DNA of 7,119 bases from Synergistaceae bacterium. GTDB lineage: Bacteria > Synergistota > Synergistia > Synergistales > Synergistaceae. Numbering within the stretch: position 1 is the stretch's first letter; every line of letters starts with the position of its first letter. This document shows positions 1-7,119 of this stretch, piece by piece. A program made the position numbers and the translations under genes. The notes beneath the pieces were generated by a model. That model was not told the DNA's origin and made no database searches. It saw only the letters and a program-made list of their open reading frames with translations. Location of the stretch: positions 1 through 7,119 of the forward strand of contig JAISQP010000016.1 of the NCBI GenBank assembly GCA_031274115.1, read 5' to 3'.

Positions 1-552
1 GCCTCTCGTGGCGTTGAAGGCCGAGAATATGAACCCCTCGACGGGCCAGAGGAGACCTCTGGACTCAAGCAGTTTGGAAACCCTCGCGTTCTGACGCTCC
101 GCGTCGAATTTCGGCGTCATGGCCGCTACCTTGAGAGCGATGTCAACATCCGTCATGGGGACGAATACCGATGGCTGAACGGCCGGCGCGGCCGGCATGT
201 CCTGAGGTAGAATGGCGGCCACGTCGATAGCCTGCTTCATCAGGCCGACTATCGCTTTTACGGACGACACCGTGGCCTCCGCGGGGCCAATCGGCGTCTT
301 TGTCCTGTCCATAAAGGCGTACTTCCCAGGCACAATCCCGGCGACGTCAAGCGCGCCTTGAGGCGAGTCCACGTTTGCTCGCGCCGGCCGCGCGAACGCG
401 ACAAACGCTAAAATAACGGCGGCGAACACTAACACGCGCTTTCCCACTTTAGCGCGGCGCGCGCCAATATCCGCCGAACTCAAATAAAAAGCCATCCCAG
501 GGCCAATCGAAACAGGGCAACGACGCACGTTCAATCTGCTCCTTATCGTCAT
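1..552 (-). CDS. Exported protein, probable M23/LytM-type peptidase, 3' end missing
   Basis: The first 184 codons are present and the reading frame is still open at the window edge. The ATG at 552 follows a strong AGGAGG site with a 6-base gap, which fixes the start. Residues 1-39 are basic and unusually long for a signal n-region. Residues 40-54 are hydrophobic and are followed by an A-R-A site at 57-59, so cleavage before N60 is likely and the protein should act outside the inner membrane. Residues 60-164 match nothing I recognise. Residues 166-184 (RGLLWPVEGFIFSAFNATRG, here written in part) resemble the entry strand of M23 peptidases, in which WPV-G-I-S-F is followed by an R-G turn before the HxxxD motif. 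The zinc ligands HxxxD and HxH would lie past position 1, so peptidase activity cannot be judged. If the call is right, the role would be peptidoglycan cleavage or cell-wall remodelling. It could instead be another secreted protein with a chance match. Confidence 0.6.
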   Translation of the reverse strand, partial: MTIRSRLNVRRCPVSIGPGMAFYLSSADIGARRAKVGKRVLVFAAVILAFVAFARPARANVDSPQGALDVAGIVPGKYAFMDRTKTPIGPAEATVSSVKAIVGLMKQAIDVAAILPQDMPAAPAVQPSVFVPMTDVDIALKVAAMTPKFDAERQNARVSKLLESRGLLWPVEGFIFSAFNATRG

Positions 553-2110: not shown

Positions 2111-2927
2111 AACGGCCCTCCCCCGGCGTCTCCATCTCTCGGATCGCCTCGATCAGCCGCTTCGTGTAGGGCTGTTCGGGGGCGCTCGCGAGCTTGCGCG
2201 AAGGACCGCTCTCCACGATCCTTCCGTCCTTCATCACTATCAGGGTATCGCATATTCCGGCGGCCAGCGGCAGGTCGTGCGTCACCAGCAGGAGCCCCAT
2301 GCCGCGCCCGCGCACCAGCTCCGCCGTCGTCTCCAACACCTCATGCTGCGTTATCACGTCGAGGGCCGTCGTCGGCTCGTCAGCAAGAAGAAAATCCGGC
2401 TCGCACGAGAGCGCGGCGGCAAGCGCGGCCCGCTGCTTCTGCCCGCCTGACAGCTCGTGCGGGTAACGCCCCAGCGCCGATTCATCCAGCCCGACCGTCC
2501 GAATCAGCTGCGCGGCCCGTTCGCGCCCTTCGCGCCTAGGCGTCTTCATGTGATGCTCCAGAACCTCGGTAATGTGGCGCTCTATCGTGAGGTGCGGCGT
2601 GAAGGAGTTCATAGCGCCCTGAGGGACCAGCGCTATTCTGCGCCAGCGCCAGACGTTCATGGCCTCCTCTTTGAGAGAGAGAAGGTCCTCTCCGTCGCAG
2701 ATCACCTGCCCGGCGACCAGCGTCCCCGGCGGCAGCAGACGTGGTATGGCCATCAAAGCGCTCGATTTGCCGCTGCCCGACTCCCCCACAAGCCCGACCA
2801 GGTCGCCCGTCGCCACGCTGAACGAACAGTTTTCCACGGCGCGAACCTCTTTGTCCCGGCCTCTGTATGTGACTGAAAGGCTTCGAAGCTCGACAGCCCT
2901 CCTAGGCGTATTCCCGCCGGAGGTCAT
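2103..2927 (-). CDS. Peptide/nickel-type ABC transporter ATPase (DppD/NikD-like)
   Basis: This is the first nucleotide-binding subunit, 274 residues, expected to pair with the other ATPase beneath the two permeases. It has Walker A GESGSGKS (48-55), Q-loop Q103 within VPQGAMNSF, signature LSGGQ (159-163), Walker B FLLADE (179-184), an intact T-A-L-D D-loop (187-190) and switch H217 in VTHD. The C-terminus EQPYTKRLIEAI (251-262) is the short oligopeptide-type tail. The PQGAMNS motif is typical of one branch of peptide-importer ATPases. I chose the ATG at 2927 because it forms an ATGA overlap with the stop of the upstream permease and has an AAGGAGG site 7 bases before it. A longer open frame continues upstream but only shadows the permease gene. 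The substrate is not predictable. Confidence 0.94.
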   Translation of the reverse strand: MTSGGNTPRRAVELRSLSVTYRGRDKEVRAVENCSFSVATGDLVGLVGESGSGKSSALMAIPRLLPPGTLVAGQVICDGEDLLSLKEEAMNVWRWRRIALVPQGAMNSFTPHLTIERHITEVLEHHMKTPRREGRERAAQLIRTVGLDESALGRYPHELSGGQKQRAALAAALSCEPDFLLADEPTTALDVITQHEVLETTAELVRGRGMGLLLVTHDLPLAAGICDTLIVMKDGRIVESGPSRKLASAPEQPYTKRLIEAIREMETPGEGRYE

Positions 2928-4114
2928 TCCATCGCCTCCTTGAGCGCTTCCTGTTTCGTCTCCATGGCGAGCCTGGGGTCGGCTTTTTCCTCCAGCTTGC
3001 GCCCTATATCCATGAAGAGCAGACAGATCACGGCTATCCCGATCCCGGGAGGCAGGACGGTCCACCACGCCCCGTTGGTGAAGGCGCCGAACGTGTGCGC
3101 TTCGTGCAGCATTCTCCCCCAGGAGGCAAGCCGGGGGTCGGAGAGCCCGAGAAAGGCCAGTCCGGCTTCGGCCAGTATCGCCCCCGGCACGCCGAGAGCC
3201 ACGTTTGCGAGCAGGAGGGGGAGCGCCTCCGGGACGAGATGACGGAAGAGGATATAGTTCCGCTTCGCGCCCAGAGCCCGCAGGCCCTCGACCCATGGGG
3301 CGTCGCGCAGGGAGAGCGTCATGGCCCGCACGGTCCGGGCCGTCCCCATCCATGAGAATATGGAGAGAATGAAGACGAGGTTCCAGAGCCCCTTGCCCCA
3401 CATCCCGGCGAGCACCATCAGGATGGGCAGCGTCGGGATGGACAGGAGTACGTCCACCGCGCGCATGATGATCGAGTCGGTCAGCCCGCCGGCGTACCCG
3501 GACAAGAGGCCCAGAGACAGGCCGAGAAGCGTGGAGATCAGCGTCGCCGCGATCCCCACCAGGAGCGACACGCGGACGCCACGAACCAGAAGCGCGGCGA
3601 CGTCGCGCCCGCGCTGGTCCGAGCCGAGCAAGCCCCATCGCCCGCCCTCGATCCTCATCTCGACCTCCCCCTCGCCGTCGAGCGATAGGCTGTATTCGCC
3701 CGGAGAGGGGAAGAGGATCGGGGCCATATTCTCGAACGGGCTGTGTCGCAGCGCTCTTTTAAATTGAATGTCGCGGGCGTCGATGTCCAGCTCTCCGGCG
3801 CCGCTCGCGAGCGTAAAGCTCCCCTCCGGGGTCCTCCATTCGAGCGCGCCGCCGTCCATGCGCCCGGTGACGGATATCCGCAGCGGAGGGGCGTAGTTCC
3901 ACGTCAGAGGCGCGACAGCGCCGGGATCTTCGGATGTATCGACGCGCAAGACCGCCGTCCCGCCGATCGAACGATCCAGCCAGCCCGGCTTCGAGTAAGG
4001 CGGCGCCTGGGGACCGTCCTTCAGCCCGAGCGCCCTCGGCCCGACGATCGCCAGGAGCGCGAGCAGAAGGAGTAATATCTCGCTCCACCGGCGTTTGAAA
4101 ATCATCCTCTTCAT
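2924..4114 (-). CDS. Peptide/nickel-type ABC permease (DppC-like) with large extracytoplasmic insert
   Basis: This inner-membrane channel subunit has 396 residues, against roughly 280-300 for ordinary DppC/OppC proteins. TM1 is at about 12-27. Residues 30-160 are hydrophilic and probably mostly beta, with repeated alternating patterns and a turn-rich PSPGEYSLSLDGEGEVEM stretch (137-153). The normal family core resumes at 161 with GLLGSDQRGRDV, the usual G-T/S-D-x-x-G-R-D motif. Further helices lie near 181-206, 226-240, 244-258, 299-324 and 353-371. The cytoplasmic EAA-type loop that docks the ATPase is at 276-299 (EGLRALGA...RHLVPEALP). The ATG at 4114 forms an ATGA overlap with the preceding permease. 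A second in-frame ATG three codons later is also possible, since GAGAGG lies before it. The insert should face the periplasm, where the binding protein docks; its function is unknown. Confidence 0.92.
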   Translation of the reverse strand: MKRMIFKRRWSEILLLLLALLAIVGPRALGLKDGPQAPPYSKPGWLDRSIGGTAVLRVDTSEDPGAVAPLTWNYAPPLRISVTGRMDGGALEWRTPEGSFTLASGAGELDIDARDIQFKRALRHSPFENMAPILFPSPGEYSLSLDGEGEVEMRIEGGRWGLLGSDQRGRDVAALLVRGVRVSLLVGIAATLISTLLGLSLGLLSGYAGGLTDSIIMRAVDVLLSIPTLPILMVLAGMWGKGLWNLVFILSIFSWMGTARTVRAMTLSLRDAPWVEGLRALGAKRNYILFRHLVPEALPLLLANVALGVPGAILAEAGLAFLGLSDPRLASWGRMLHEAHTFGAFTNGAWWTVLPPGIGIAVICLLFMDIGRKLEEKADPRLAMETKQEALKEAME

Positions 4115-5079
4115 CCTCTCGAGCCCTCGCGCCTGACGCGCGGATCGACGAGGGCGTAACAGACGTCGGCCAGGAGATTGCAGCCCACCGTCAGAAGAGC
4201 CAGCAGGAAAAACGCCGCGCCGGCCGACGGGTAGTCGTGCGAGTTTGTGGCCTCCAGCAGAAAGCGTCCGACCCCGTTCAGCGAGAAGACGGTCTCCGTG
4301 ATGACCGCGCCGCTCACCACCGACGGCAGGGAGAGAAGCAGAATCGTCAGAACGGGCGGCAGTATGGACCGGAAAGCGTGATTCCACACCACGCGGCGGT
4401 ACGGCAACCCCCTGGCCCGCGCCATCAAAACGTAGTCCTCGCCCATGGCCTTCACCATCATATTTCTGATGTAGAGCGCCCACCCGCCGAAGCTCAGGAG
4501 CACGAGCGAGAAGACTGGCAGGGCGAGATGCCAGACGTAGTCGAGCGCTCCGTATATTCCCCCCGGCGGAGGGACAGACGTGGTCCCGCGCAGAGGGAAC
4601 AGCGGCCAGGTATAGGCGAAGCACAGCAGAAGCAGTATCTGCACGAAAAACGACGGGAATGAGAATGAAACGGCCCCCCCGACGAGAACGAGCCGCTCGG
4701 CGTTAGAACCCCGCTTCAGAGCGGCCTTTACGCCAAGCCAGCCTCCCAGCGCGGCTGACAGGACCAGCGAGGGGAGCAGAAGAGCCACGGTGTTCGGAGC
4801 GCGTTTTTTCAGCTCGTCCCAGACCGGCGCACCCGTCATCATCGACAGGCCGAAACGGAACGACAGCATCTCTCGGATATACACGACGAACTGCTCTCCC
4901 ATGGGCTTGTCCAGCCCCCACTGCGCGGCGAGCTGCTGTTTTGCCTCCGGAGAGAAGCGCGGGTCCACGATGCCGGTGAGCGGGTCGCCGGGCATGATTC
5001 TGAACAGAAAGAAGTTGAGCACGAGGACCGAGATCAGTACAACCGCGGAACCGAACACGCGCTTCAAAAAGACGTTCAT
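4111..5079 (-). CDS. Peptide/nickel-type ABC permease (DppB-like)
   Basis: This is the other channel subunit, 322 residues, a normal length for DppB/OppB. TM1 is at about 10-28, followed by the periplasmic RIMPGDPL motif (27-34) and the segment LAAQWGLDKPMGEQFVVYI (50-68), both hallmarks of the family. More helices lie near 98-118, 130-157, 183-204, 243-262 and 287-310. The EAA-type loop that contacts the ATPase is at 214-240 (EDYVLMARARGL...FRSILPP). The end, YALVDPRVR (308-316), is the usual C-terminal signature. The ATG at 5079 overlaps the binding-protein stop as ATGA. The upstream GAAGG is weak and distant, so start-up probably relies on coupling to the previous gene. Nothing in this subunit looks altered, in contrast to its partner permease. 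Confidence 0.94.
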   Translation of the reverse strand: MNVFLKRVFGSAVVLISVLVLNFFLFRIMPGDPLTGIVDPRFSPEAKQQLAAQWGLDKPMGEQFVVYIREMLSFRFGLSMMTGAPVWDELKKRAPNTVALLLPSLVLSAALGGWLGVKAALKRGSNAERLVLVGGAVSFSFPSFFVQILLLLCFAYTWPLFPLRGTTSVPPPGGIYGALDYVWHLALPVFSLVLLSFGGWALYIRNMMVKAMGEDYVLMARARGLPYRRVVWNHAFRSILPPVLTILLLSLPSVVSGAVITETVFSLNGVGRFLLEATNSHDYPSAGAAFFLLALLTVGCNLLADVCYALVDPRVRREGSRG

Positions 5080-6767
5080 CGCGGCGACTCGCCTTCGAGC
5101 AGCATGTAGTGTTCGTTGCGGGTCATGTGAACGTACTCGCCGGTCCTCGACTCGCGAAAGGTGAACGGGCCGGCGCCGATAAGCTCTGTGAGCGTCGTCC
5201 CGTCCAGGGCCTTGTGCGGTTTGTTGGTCGGCTGCCACGTTCGCCAATCCGTGACGTTCTCCAGAATATGCTTCGGCAGCAGGAGCATACCTCCGATGTT
5301 ATGCAGATGCCAGTAACTCGTGTTCGCCATCGTCACCCGCACCGTCCTCTCGCTCTCGTCCGCTTCGATGGATTCGATATCTTTCACGCTGTCGAAGAAT
5401 CGCGGAACGTTGTTGTCCTTGATGAACTTCAGGGTGTACTCGACGTCGCGAACCGTGATGGGGCGTCCGTCCTGCCACTTCAGACCGGGGCGCAGGGTAA
5501 AGGTGAGGACGGAGCCCTTCTCTCCCGGCTCGATGCTCCAGCTCTCGGCGAGCCACGGCATGTCCTCGAAGGTATAGGGATCGGCGGAGATCATGGTGTC
5601 GTAGACCGTCCCAAGCACCGCCCAGTCGTATGCGGTGGAGGAGACGAGCGGGTTCAGCGTTCGAATCTCCTCCGGGATATTCCAATAAATGGGGCGTTCC
5701 CCGCCGTCCTTTGGCGTCATGGAGATGAGCGTGAGCAGGTTGTCCGAGGTCGATCTGTCCGTCGTGAACACGCCGTCCCAGTCGTTTCGCATCGCCGAGA
5801 TGGAGTAGCGGCTGTAGATCGGGATGACCGGCATCAGCTCCGAGAGCATCTTCTGCGCTCGCGAGGCCATAACGCGCGCGCTCGCCTCGTCCGGCGCGTA
5901 GCGGAGATCATGGAGCGCTTTGTCCAGCTCCGGGTCGGCAATGCCGCTCATGTTGTACCCGCCCTCCACGTCCATGGACGAATGATAAAAGGAGTATAGA
6001 ACATCGGGGTCCCGCGACATTGTCCAAGCGTTGGTGCAGGCGTCGAAGTTCCGGACGTCGACTCGGGCCAGCATTGTCTGAAAATCGAGCGGCTCGGCCT
6101 CTGCCGGAACTCCGATAGATGACAGGGCCTCCGCCGTCAGGGCGGCGATCTCCGTCGTCGTCGTCGCCACCGACGAGGGAGGGCAGAGTATCTTCGTGAC
6201 CGGAACCTTGCGCCCGTCAGGAGCGACGAGCCGCCCCGAGCGGTCCCACGTCCACCCCGCGTCCGCGAGGCGCTTGCGCGCGGCATCCACCCCGGGCGGG
6301 AACTTCGTCACGTTCGGCTCGTAGTACGGCGAGATACTCGGCAGAAAACTCTCGATCGGCTCGCAGTACCCCGCGAACAGGTCGCGAGTCCATTTTCTGC
6401 GCTCCACGACCTGCGACGCGGCCTGACGCAATACCGTCTGATCCCATGGGAACTTGCGCAAGTTGAAGGTGATGAAAAAGCCGTGAAAGGACGAGGCCAG
6501 CGACAGGTCCGCGCCGGACCTGGCAAGGCGCTCGACGTCCGCCGGGCGGTATATGTCGGAGAGCACGTCGAGCTTCCCGGCTGACATGGCGAGAAGCTGC
6601 GCGTCCATGTCACGGATTATGACGTAATACAGATCCTTCATCTTCGGCCCGCGATAGTTCCTTATGTCGAACGACGACGCCTGCTCGCCGGCCGCGGGAT
6701 GAACCGACAGCGCGAGCGCCGCCGCAAAGCAGATCAGCAACGAACAACGCAGGTAAAAACGCCTCAA
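5076..6767 (-). CDS. Family-5 ABC solute-binding protein, circularly permuted
   Basis: This is the periplasmic receptor of the importer, 563 residues, near the usual length. Residues 1-27 are a signal peptide (basic start, core 9-21, cleavage near PAAG) without a lipobox, so the mature protein is soluble. The fold order is reversed. Residues 44-333 are the family's normal C-terminal half: the VIIRDMDAQLLAMSAGKLDVL strand-helix (49-69), FITFNLRKFPWDQTVLRQA (98-116), FDACTNAWTMSRDPD (241-255) and PVIPIYSR (313-320). A linker follows. Residues 359-563 are the normal N-terminal half: LNPLVSSTAYD (371-381), the MPWLAESW motif (403-410), LTFTLRPGLKWQDGRPIT (421-438) and GAGPFTFRES (531-540). The chain ends at SPR, where the first half would ordinarily follow. 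The start is TTG after a GGGGG site; an in-frame TAG sits three codons upstream, so no N-half is missing. Which ligand binds is unknown. Confidence 0.9.
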   Translation of the reverse strand: MRRFYLRCSLLICFAAALALSVHPAAGEQASSFDIRNYRGPKMKDLYYVIIRDMDAQLLAMSAGKLDVLSDIYRPADVERLARSGADLSLASSFHGFFITFNLRKFPWDQTVLRQAASQVVERRKWTRDLFAGYCEPIESFLPSISPYYEPNVTKFPPGVDAARKRLADAGWTWDRSGRLVAPDGRKVPVTKILCPPSSVATTTTEIAALTAEALSSIGVPAEAEPLDFQTMLARVDVRNFDACTNAWTMSRDPDVLYSFYHSSMDVEGGYNMSGIADPELDKALHDLRYAPDEASARVMASRAQKMLSELMPVIPIYSRYSISAMRNDWDGVFTTDRSTSDNLLTLISMTPKDGGERPIYWNIPEEIRTLNPLVSSTAYDWAVLGTVYDTMISADPYTFEDMPWLAESWSIEPGEKGSVLTFTLRPGLKWQDGRPITVRDVEYTLKFIKDNNVPRFFDSVKDIESIEADESERTVRVTMANTSYWHLHNIGGMLLLPKHILENVTDWRTWQPTNKPHKALDGTTLTELIGAGPFTFRESRTGEYVHMTRNEHYMLLEGESPR

Positions 6768-6780
6768 AATGGACTACCCC

Positions 6781-6836
6781 CTATATTCAAGCAACGCTTA
6801 CTAAATTATACACTTACTGACAAGCTATGAATATAG
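6781..6836 (-). repeat. Inverted repeat over the ABC operon leader
   Basis: CTATATTCA (6781-6789) is exactly complementary to TGAATATAG (6828-6836). Pairing extends inward by AGC/GCT with one bulged A at 6827, giving 12 pairs around a 31-base loop. The near arm touches the GGGGG ribosome site (6777-6781) of the binding-protein gene. A transcript started upstream of 6836 could fold so as to hinder translation. As DNA, the arms could instead be two operator half-sites flanking the -10 box at 6805-6810. Confidence 0.5.
6805..6810 (-). promoter_or_regulatory. Candidate -10 box for the ABC operon
   Basis: The minus strand reads TATAAT here, a perfect -10 match. It would give a start near 6798 and a leader of about 30 bases before the TTG. 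The best -35 at a 17-base spacing is only TATTCA, so the promoter would be weak or activator-dependent. Confidence 0.4.
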
Positions 6837-6926: not shown

Positions 6927-7119
6927 ATGACGGACGATTTCAGTGGAATAACATTCAGCCAGGAGATGGAGCGTGAGATACTCGAGCTCGAACGCAGGGG
7001 CGAGCTTCCGAAGGAGATCGACAGGTTCGGCGATCATTTTCTGAAGTTCCTGCTCGCCGCGCCGGAGAGGCAATGGATACTGCTCGACCTGCTCAACACT
7101 ATCCTGAAGCTGATGGGTT
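6927..7119 (+). CDS. Rpn-like PD-(D/E)XK nuclease/transposase-family protein, N-terminus only
   Basis: The first 64 codons are present and the frame runs off the window. The ATG at 6927 has AAAGGA (6911-6916) ten bases before it and a TATAAT box at 6892-6897. Residues 12-30 are a charged helix (QEMEREILELERRGELPKE). Residues 32-61 (DRFGDHFLKFLLAAPER then WILLDLLNTIL) match the opening of Rpn-family proteins, in which D-x-x-F-K-x-L-L precedes a leucine-rich LLDLLNAIL helix. Family members are often annotated as recombination-promoting nucleases or inactive transposases and act on DNA in the cytoplasm. The catalytic D-ExK motif would be past the window end, so activity cannot be assessed. The gene is divergent from the ABC operon and G+C-rich like it. 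There is no sign of a functional link beyond the shared control region. Confidence 0.65.
   Translation, partial: MTDDFSGITFSQEMEREILELERRGELPKEIDRFGDHFLKFLLAAPERQWILLDLLNTILKLMG

Follow-up and report, generated by a model that had tools for sequence, protein, structure and literature searches.

Sequence comparisons confirm that the gene at positions 5076 to 6767 (minus strand) of the window, the whole stretch of 7,119 nucleotides analysed here, encodes a family-5 substrate-binding protein (SBP) whose chain has been circularly permuted in nature, and that this is not an assembly artefact. Taken whole, the explanation we favour, a permuted family-5 (cluster C) periplasmic SBP that serves a Dpp/Opp-type ABC importer by the steps proposed below, is very probably correct. 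The 563-residue protein starts with a TTG codon at 6767; the frame is closed upstream by an in-frame TAG (6776-6774), and the purine run AGGGGGT at 6776 to 6782 (minus strand) is, by eye, a likely ribosome-binding site. A promoter scan upstream of the gene found none. Residues 1 to about 28 (6684 to 6767, minus strand) form a predicted Sec signal peptide, with a cleavage site placed by eye and without a visible lipobox. By a simple pattern, AxA-like sites were present in 59 of 72 sequences and lipobox-like ones in 0 of 72. Two other frames lie at the borders of the window: a 184-residue ORF with a hydrophobic stretch (1 to 552, minus strand) runs off its end, and an ORF start of 64 residues (6927 to 7118, plus strand) points, on the opposite strand, towards the other end; neither of them matches a Pfam family with an E-value of 0.1 or less.

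The native C-terminal part of the protein now comes first (residues 34-352; 5712 to 6668, minus strand). It is followed by the turn KDGGERP (residues 353-359; 5691 to 5711, minus strand), a loop in the model, which fuses the native C- and N-termini, and then by the native N-terminal part with its LNP, WLAESW, W-DG and GAGPF blocks (residues 360-555; 5103 to 5690, minus strand). SBP_bac_5 (PF00496) was the one Pfam family listed for the protein at E up to 1 (182.1 bits, cut-off 32.4), and it matched in two stretches: residues 404-555 covered profile positions 4-141, and residues 40-263 covered 145-363 when the native C-part was given alone. No single colinear stretch was obtained unless the protein was rotated in silico. 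A phmmer search of PDB sequences gave the same swap in all three alignments printed (CcNikZ-II, CtaP and AppA), and against AppA, residues 43-326 of the SBP aligned to 214-495 and residues 407-555 to 70-208 (PDB chains). By these profile and sequence matches the two halves are complementary, occur once each and stand in reversed order, and we assign the protein to a permuted subclass rather than to the ordinary SBP_bac_5 members. A repeat search yielded short imperfect repeats only, and a second SBP half was not found by it.

For the rotation, the window SBP was cut at residue 354/355 and its ends were exchanged. The rotated protein gave one Pfam stretch (profile 4-363 of 368; 193.6 bits versus 182.1 unrotated) and, in BLASTP, a single alignment that covers E. 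coli DppA 42-518 (61.6 bits versus pieces of 44.7 and 40.4). With phmmer against DppA there was no gain (40.9 bits before rotation and 40.5 after, two domains both times). A rotation scan used 14 ordinary SBPs as reference, 13 from Synergistota genomes and E. coli DppA. Its optimum fell at the native-terminus junction, residue 318-348, in all seven permuted proteins tested, with a mean gain at the best rotation of 11.7 to 30.8 bits; the ordinary SBP controls scored best at their own ends (14/14). The motifs occurred in the expected order in 65 of the 72 sequences with a corrected pattern (28 of 72 with a stricter one); six of the seven failing rows lacked one letter pattern, and the seventh, L084, ends before the GPF block. 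The preliminary description had given the frame, the TTG start, the in-frame TAG and the ATGA overlap with the permease gene, and had claimed a reversed order with each block present once, hence a natural permutation. Coordinates and strand check out, the reversed complementary Pfam halves and their merging into one stretch after rotation bear out the block order, and the rotation scan, conservation and operon setting support the permutation itself.

The search of databases for homologues with the same block order, which that description had proposed, returned many. In a phylum survey, relatives of the permuted SBP were found in 106 of 185 Synergistota genomes, with E-values no worse than 1e-40; the match spanned the junction in 105 of these 106 (rows read by eye), the exception being G044, where it covered residues 7-229, and in a few genomes of the survey it came in pieces. 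An assembly error in a single metagenome contig, whether a join or an inversion, for which the record of 7119 bases would leave room, was rejected and has a practically negligible probability, since the homologue search and the survey show the same order in 106/185 genomes, contigs of more than 1 Mb (1.4-3.6 Mb) carry 11 of the 40 copies that were retrieved together with their flanks, and for 109 of the best 120 of 294 homologues (the window protein among the 109) a single alignment takes in 90% or more of the query. The other members of those 109 are 47-83% identical to the window SBP, and the organisms named among the matches listed are Synergistaceae, Synergistales, Thermovirgaceae, Fretibacterium and Synergistetes. 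One of the 11 copies on contigs over 1 Mb (L127, 2.8-Mb contig) has a frameshift near query residue 391 that breaks it in two (7780-8940 and 8751-9452, plus strand), for which sequencing error and decay are both possible.

The gene evolves under purifying selection: dN/dS was 0.085-0.161 between the window gene and nine distinct homologous genes (ten rows, one gene appearing twice). Decay of the gene was among the readings weighed and set aside. Ten genomes were picked because they had few candidates; in all ten, no SBP_bac_5 other than the permuted protein was found, and in each of them profile positions 144-146 to 362-364 came ahead of 3-5 to 141-146. Since it is the sole family-5 SBP found there, the rewired form presumably does the work in these genomes. 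The remaining family-5 matches, in nine genomes searched at E 1e-3, stood at E 1e-11 or worse.

AlphaFold2 predicted the SBP as one confident chain (pLDDT 92.4, pTM 0.86), and we infer from this confidence that the two halves form one joint fold. The turn between the fused termini is modelled as a loop between strands 351-352 and 360-364, with a pLDDT of 94 for the block 351-360. In the 50 rows shown, Foldseek with the whole model gave TM-scores of 0.40-0.54, and the VIA rows fall largely within residues 34-355: an aligner that follows chain order can match only one of the halves per alignment, and stops at the native C-terminus. Such half-only structural matches fit a permutation without proving it. 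The turn is short, seven residues here, with a spacing of 24-29 residues in 68 of the 72 sequences, and it might force a domain-swapped dimer, so that the working unit would not be a monomeric permutant. The confident monomer model, particularly around the turn, makes this very improbable. Judged by the domain borders of DppA, the new ends probably sit in a loop (mature DppA about 203-209) of the same lobe as the native ones; a location near the inter-lobe hinge, as first described, is presumably at odds with these borders.

The SBP is encoded together with Dpp/Opp-type permeases and ATPases, all on the minus strand. Its gene overlaps by ATGA (5079-5076) that of permease B (PermB, DppB/OppB type, 322 residues, 4111 to 5079), which is followed by permease C (PermC, DppC/OppC type, long form of 396 residues, 2924 to 4114), ATP-binding protein 1 (274 residues, 2103 to 2927) and ATP-binding protein 2 (264 residues, 1316 to 2110). 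The next two junctions overlap by 4 bases each and the last one, between the ATPase genes, by 8 bases. Both ATPases are short, and their oligo_HPY matches stay below the cut-off (21.1 and 26.6 bits versus 27.1). All five genes were present in the order SBP-PermB-PermC-ATP1-ATP2 in 49 of 68 loci; together with the ATGA overlap, this upholds the earlier proposal that the permuted arrangement is built into the operon. Ten of the other 19 loci span under 4.1 kb from the SBP start. In the remaining nine, which span at least 6.9 kb (L012, L018, L020, L023, L025, L026, L091, L092 and L105), the operon is incomplete or rearranged, with one or more genes missing at the expected place. PermB is without PermC after it in L012, L020 and L025; a long PermC lies elsewhere in the genomes of L020 (G105) and L025 (G007), and none was found in that of L012 (G005).

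The long form of PermC has an insert predicted to be all-beta (residues about 31-158; 3641 to 4024, minus strand; block pLDDT 92-98), which follows TM1 and precedes the LGTDxxGRD motif, here within the segment LGSDQRGRD; DppC is without such a segment. Thirteen Dpp/Opp C-type chains align over 260-267 residues of a PermC model span of about 380, and compared with the DppC/OppC permeases 8z1w, 8z21 and 8j5s, about 115 residues of the model, the beta-segment between TM1 and TM2, are unaligned. The BPD_transp_1 core is present (95.2 bits, cut-off 26.4), and the protein scores below the cut-off of every named NCBIfam model, the best being Opp4C (193.2 bits versus 350, residues 162-381). In the rows listed for the survey of Synergistota genomes with PermC, ordinary DppC-type permeases matched from residue 131 or later only. 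A separate protein search with PermC found 1071 matches, of which the best 120 were considered. Foldseek matches of PermC to cupins were weak (2fqp, E 0.011), and the insert, when searched with phmmer in the PDB, reached a best E of 0.24. The long PermC and the permuted SBP were found together in 102 of the 185 genomes, the SBP only in four, PermC only in two, and neither in 77. The modelled beta-domain, which would face the periplasm, may serve as a docking site for the permuted SBP.

The following course would account for these data. The permutation is most likely a single event that predates the divergence of the Synergistota proteins. The short turn would have stitched the native termini together, and the chain would have been opened elsewhere in that lobe, in the loop that separates the GxGPF/RNExY strand from the next D-L-Y-x-x-I strand. 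With the lobe-crossing segments intact, the protein, exported by its signal peptide, would remain the same two-lobed trap that closes on its ligand, and the trap would pass the ligand to PermB/PermC for ATP-driven import. The permuted form would have been kept, usually with a permease bearing the extra periplasmic beta-domain. Circular permutations usually come about when a gene is duplicated, the copies fuse and the outer halves are lost, and this route may be supposed here; a tandem intermediate was not seen. Neutral drift, a changed attachment of the chain ends or adaptation to the long PermC may each be the reason for its retention.

When 21 permuted rows were rotated and placed in one tree with 23 ordinary ones, the permuted proteins fell on one side of a branch (100/100), and half trees on shared columns agreed (N half 99.6/100, C half 95.7/98). 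The protein might instead be a chimera, its halves coming from two different SBP genes joined in new order: the event is too old for the donors to be named, and the authors of the report on TpMglB-2 discuss a permuted part acquired from another gene (PMC4990184). However, there is little if any overlap or gap where the halves join at profile 141-146, and both halves group the permuted proteins alike, which makes a chimera improbable. The simplest account, and from these trees and alignments the most likely one, would be that a family-5 SBP was circularly permuted once, long ago, and kept its fold and transport role.

Permuted SBPs outside the phylum were sought among the best 120 of 294 matches and, from a search with L088, the most divergent member fetched, among the best 120 of 140. 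Two proteins had the native C-part first by Pfam: P0347 (560 residues, 33-41% identical to Synergistota-type rows) and P0349 (785 residues), from a Promethearchaeota archaeon MAG whose longest contig has 4127 bases. BLASTP alignments of P0349 to L088 and P0001 run from end to end in the permuted order; the nine matches listed after it (P0350-P0358) have the ordinary order by Pfam. At its end, P0349 carries about 200 extra residues (about 570-785), which have a Thr-rich stretch, a hydrophobic end and, in Pfam, only Ig-like matches below the threshold; the new C-terminus of P0349 may be its tether. Half-by-half trees place P0347 and P0349 with the Synergistota permuted proteins, and because both half trees agree in this, one permutation event is favoured.

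The Promethearchaeota record could also reflect an independent permutation, the loop being a favoured cut site. Its branch is long (2.43), it is 21-27% identical to the other permuted rows, and the trees were without any ordinary SBP known to be archaeal. P0349 nevertheless joins the permuted clade in the N-half as well as the C-half tree, and local sequence patterns, S[YF]WHL and WxTWxP among them, are shared as well; a second origin is therefore rather unlikely. The placement and organism of P0349 are provisional, given its long branch, unusual composition and one short MAG contig. A wider form of the single-origin account, 'cluster Cc', is tentative and somewhat doubtful: one ancient permutation would be shared, by descent or transfer, between Synergistota and at least one Promethearchaeota lineage, with the beta-domain of the Synergistota PermC docking the SBP. 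If this were true, chain topology and translocator would have co-evolved.

Circular permutation is familiar as an engineering trick for binding proteins. The present case would be a natural experiment in which a chain was rewired with its shape and job kept, seen across a large part of a phylum and in a single record from archaea, and effects of chain order on folding, docking or tethering become testable. It also reveals a blind spot of annotation: sources label the permuted proteins as ordinary SBPs, and the Pfam label hides the swapped order.

Among known systems, AppA, DppA, OppA and NikA (SBP_bac_5, cluster C) have their halves in the opposite order to the window SBP, which is about 20-25% identical to 14 ordinary SBPs in the longer alignments and reaches 47 bits with the NCBIfam DppA model (cut-off 1005). 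Its ligand may, on slight indications, be an oligopeptide or a related compound; D436 of DppA, the Asp that contacts the peptide amino group (PMC12136057), is replaced by S, G or T in eight of eight permuted rows aligned. The closest precedent is TpMglB-2 (Tp0684) of Treponema pallidum, a natural permutation of a periplasmic binding protein, as here, which still binds its ligand, has relatives of the same topology and is termed 'Type Ic / Cluster Bc' (PMC4990184). That protein has the Type I/cluster B sugar-binding fold, to which the permutation adds a fourth lobe crossing (PMC4990184), whereas the window SBP belongs to family 5/cluster C. The window SBP thus shares with Cluster Bc the natural permutation and not the Type I/cluster B fold. 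It is cut elsewhere than TpMglB-2 and, by the domain borders of DppA, presumably needs no extra crossing. A natural permutation in family-5 SBPs, which the preliminary description had supposed to be undescribed, was not found in the literature searched, a body outside which many subscription journals lie; the SBP precedent there is the cluster B one (PMC4990184). Permutation of an SBP was thus already known in cluster B, and what appears to be new, on the sequence comparisons, is a permuted SBP of family 5 and its unusually broad spread.
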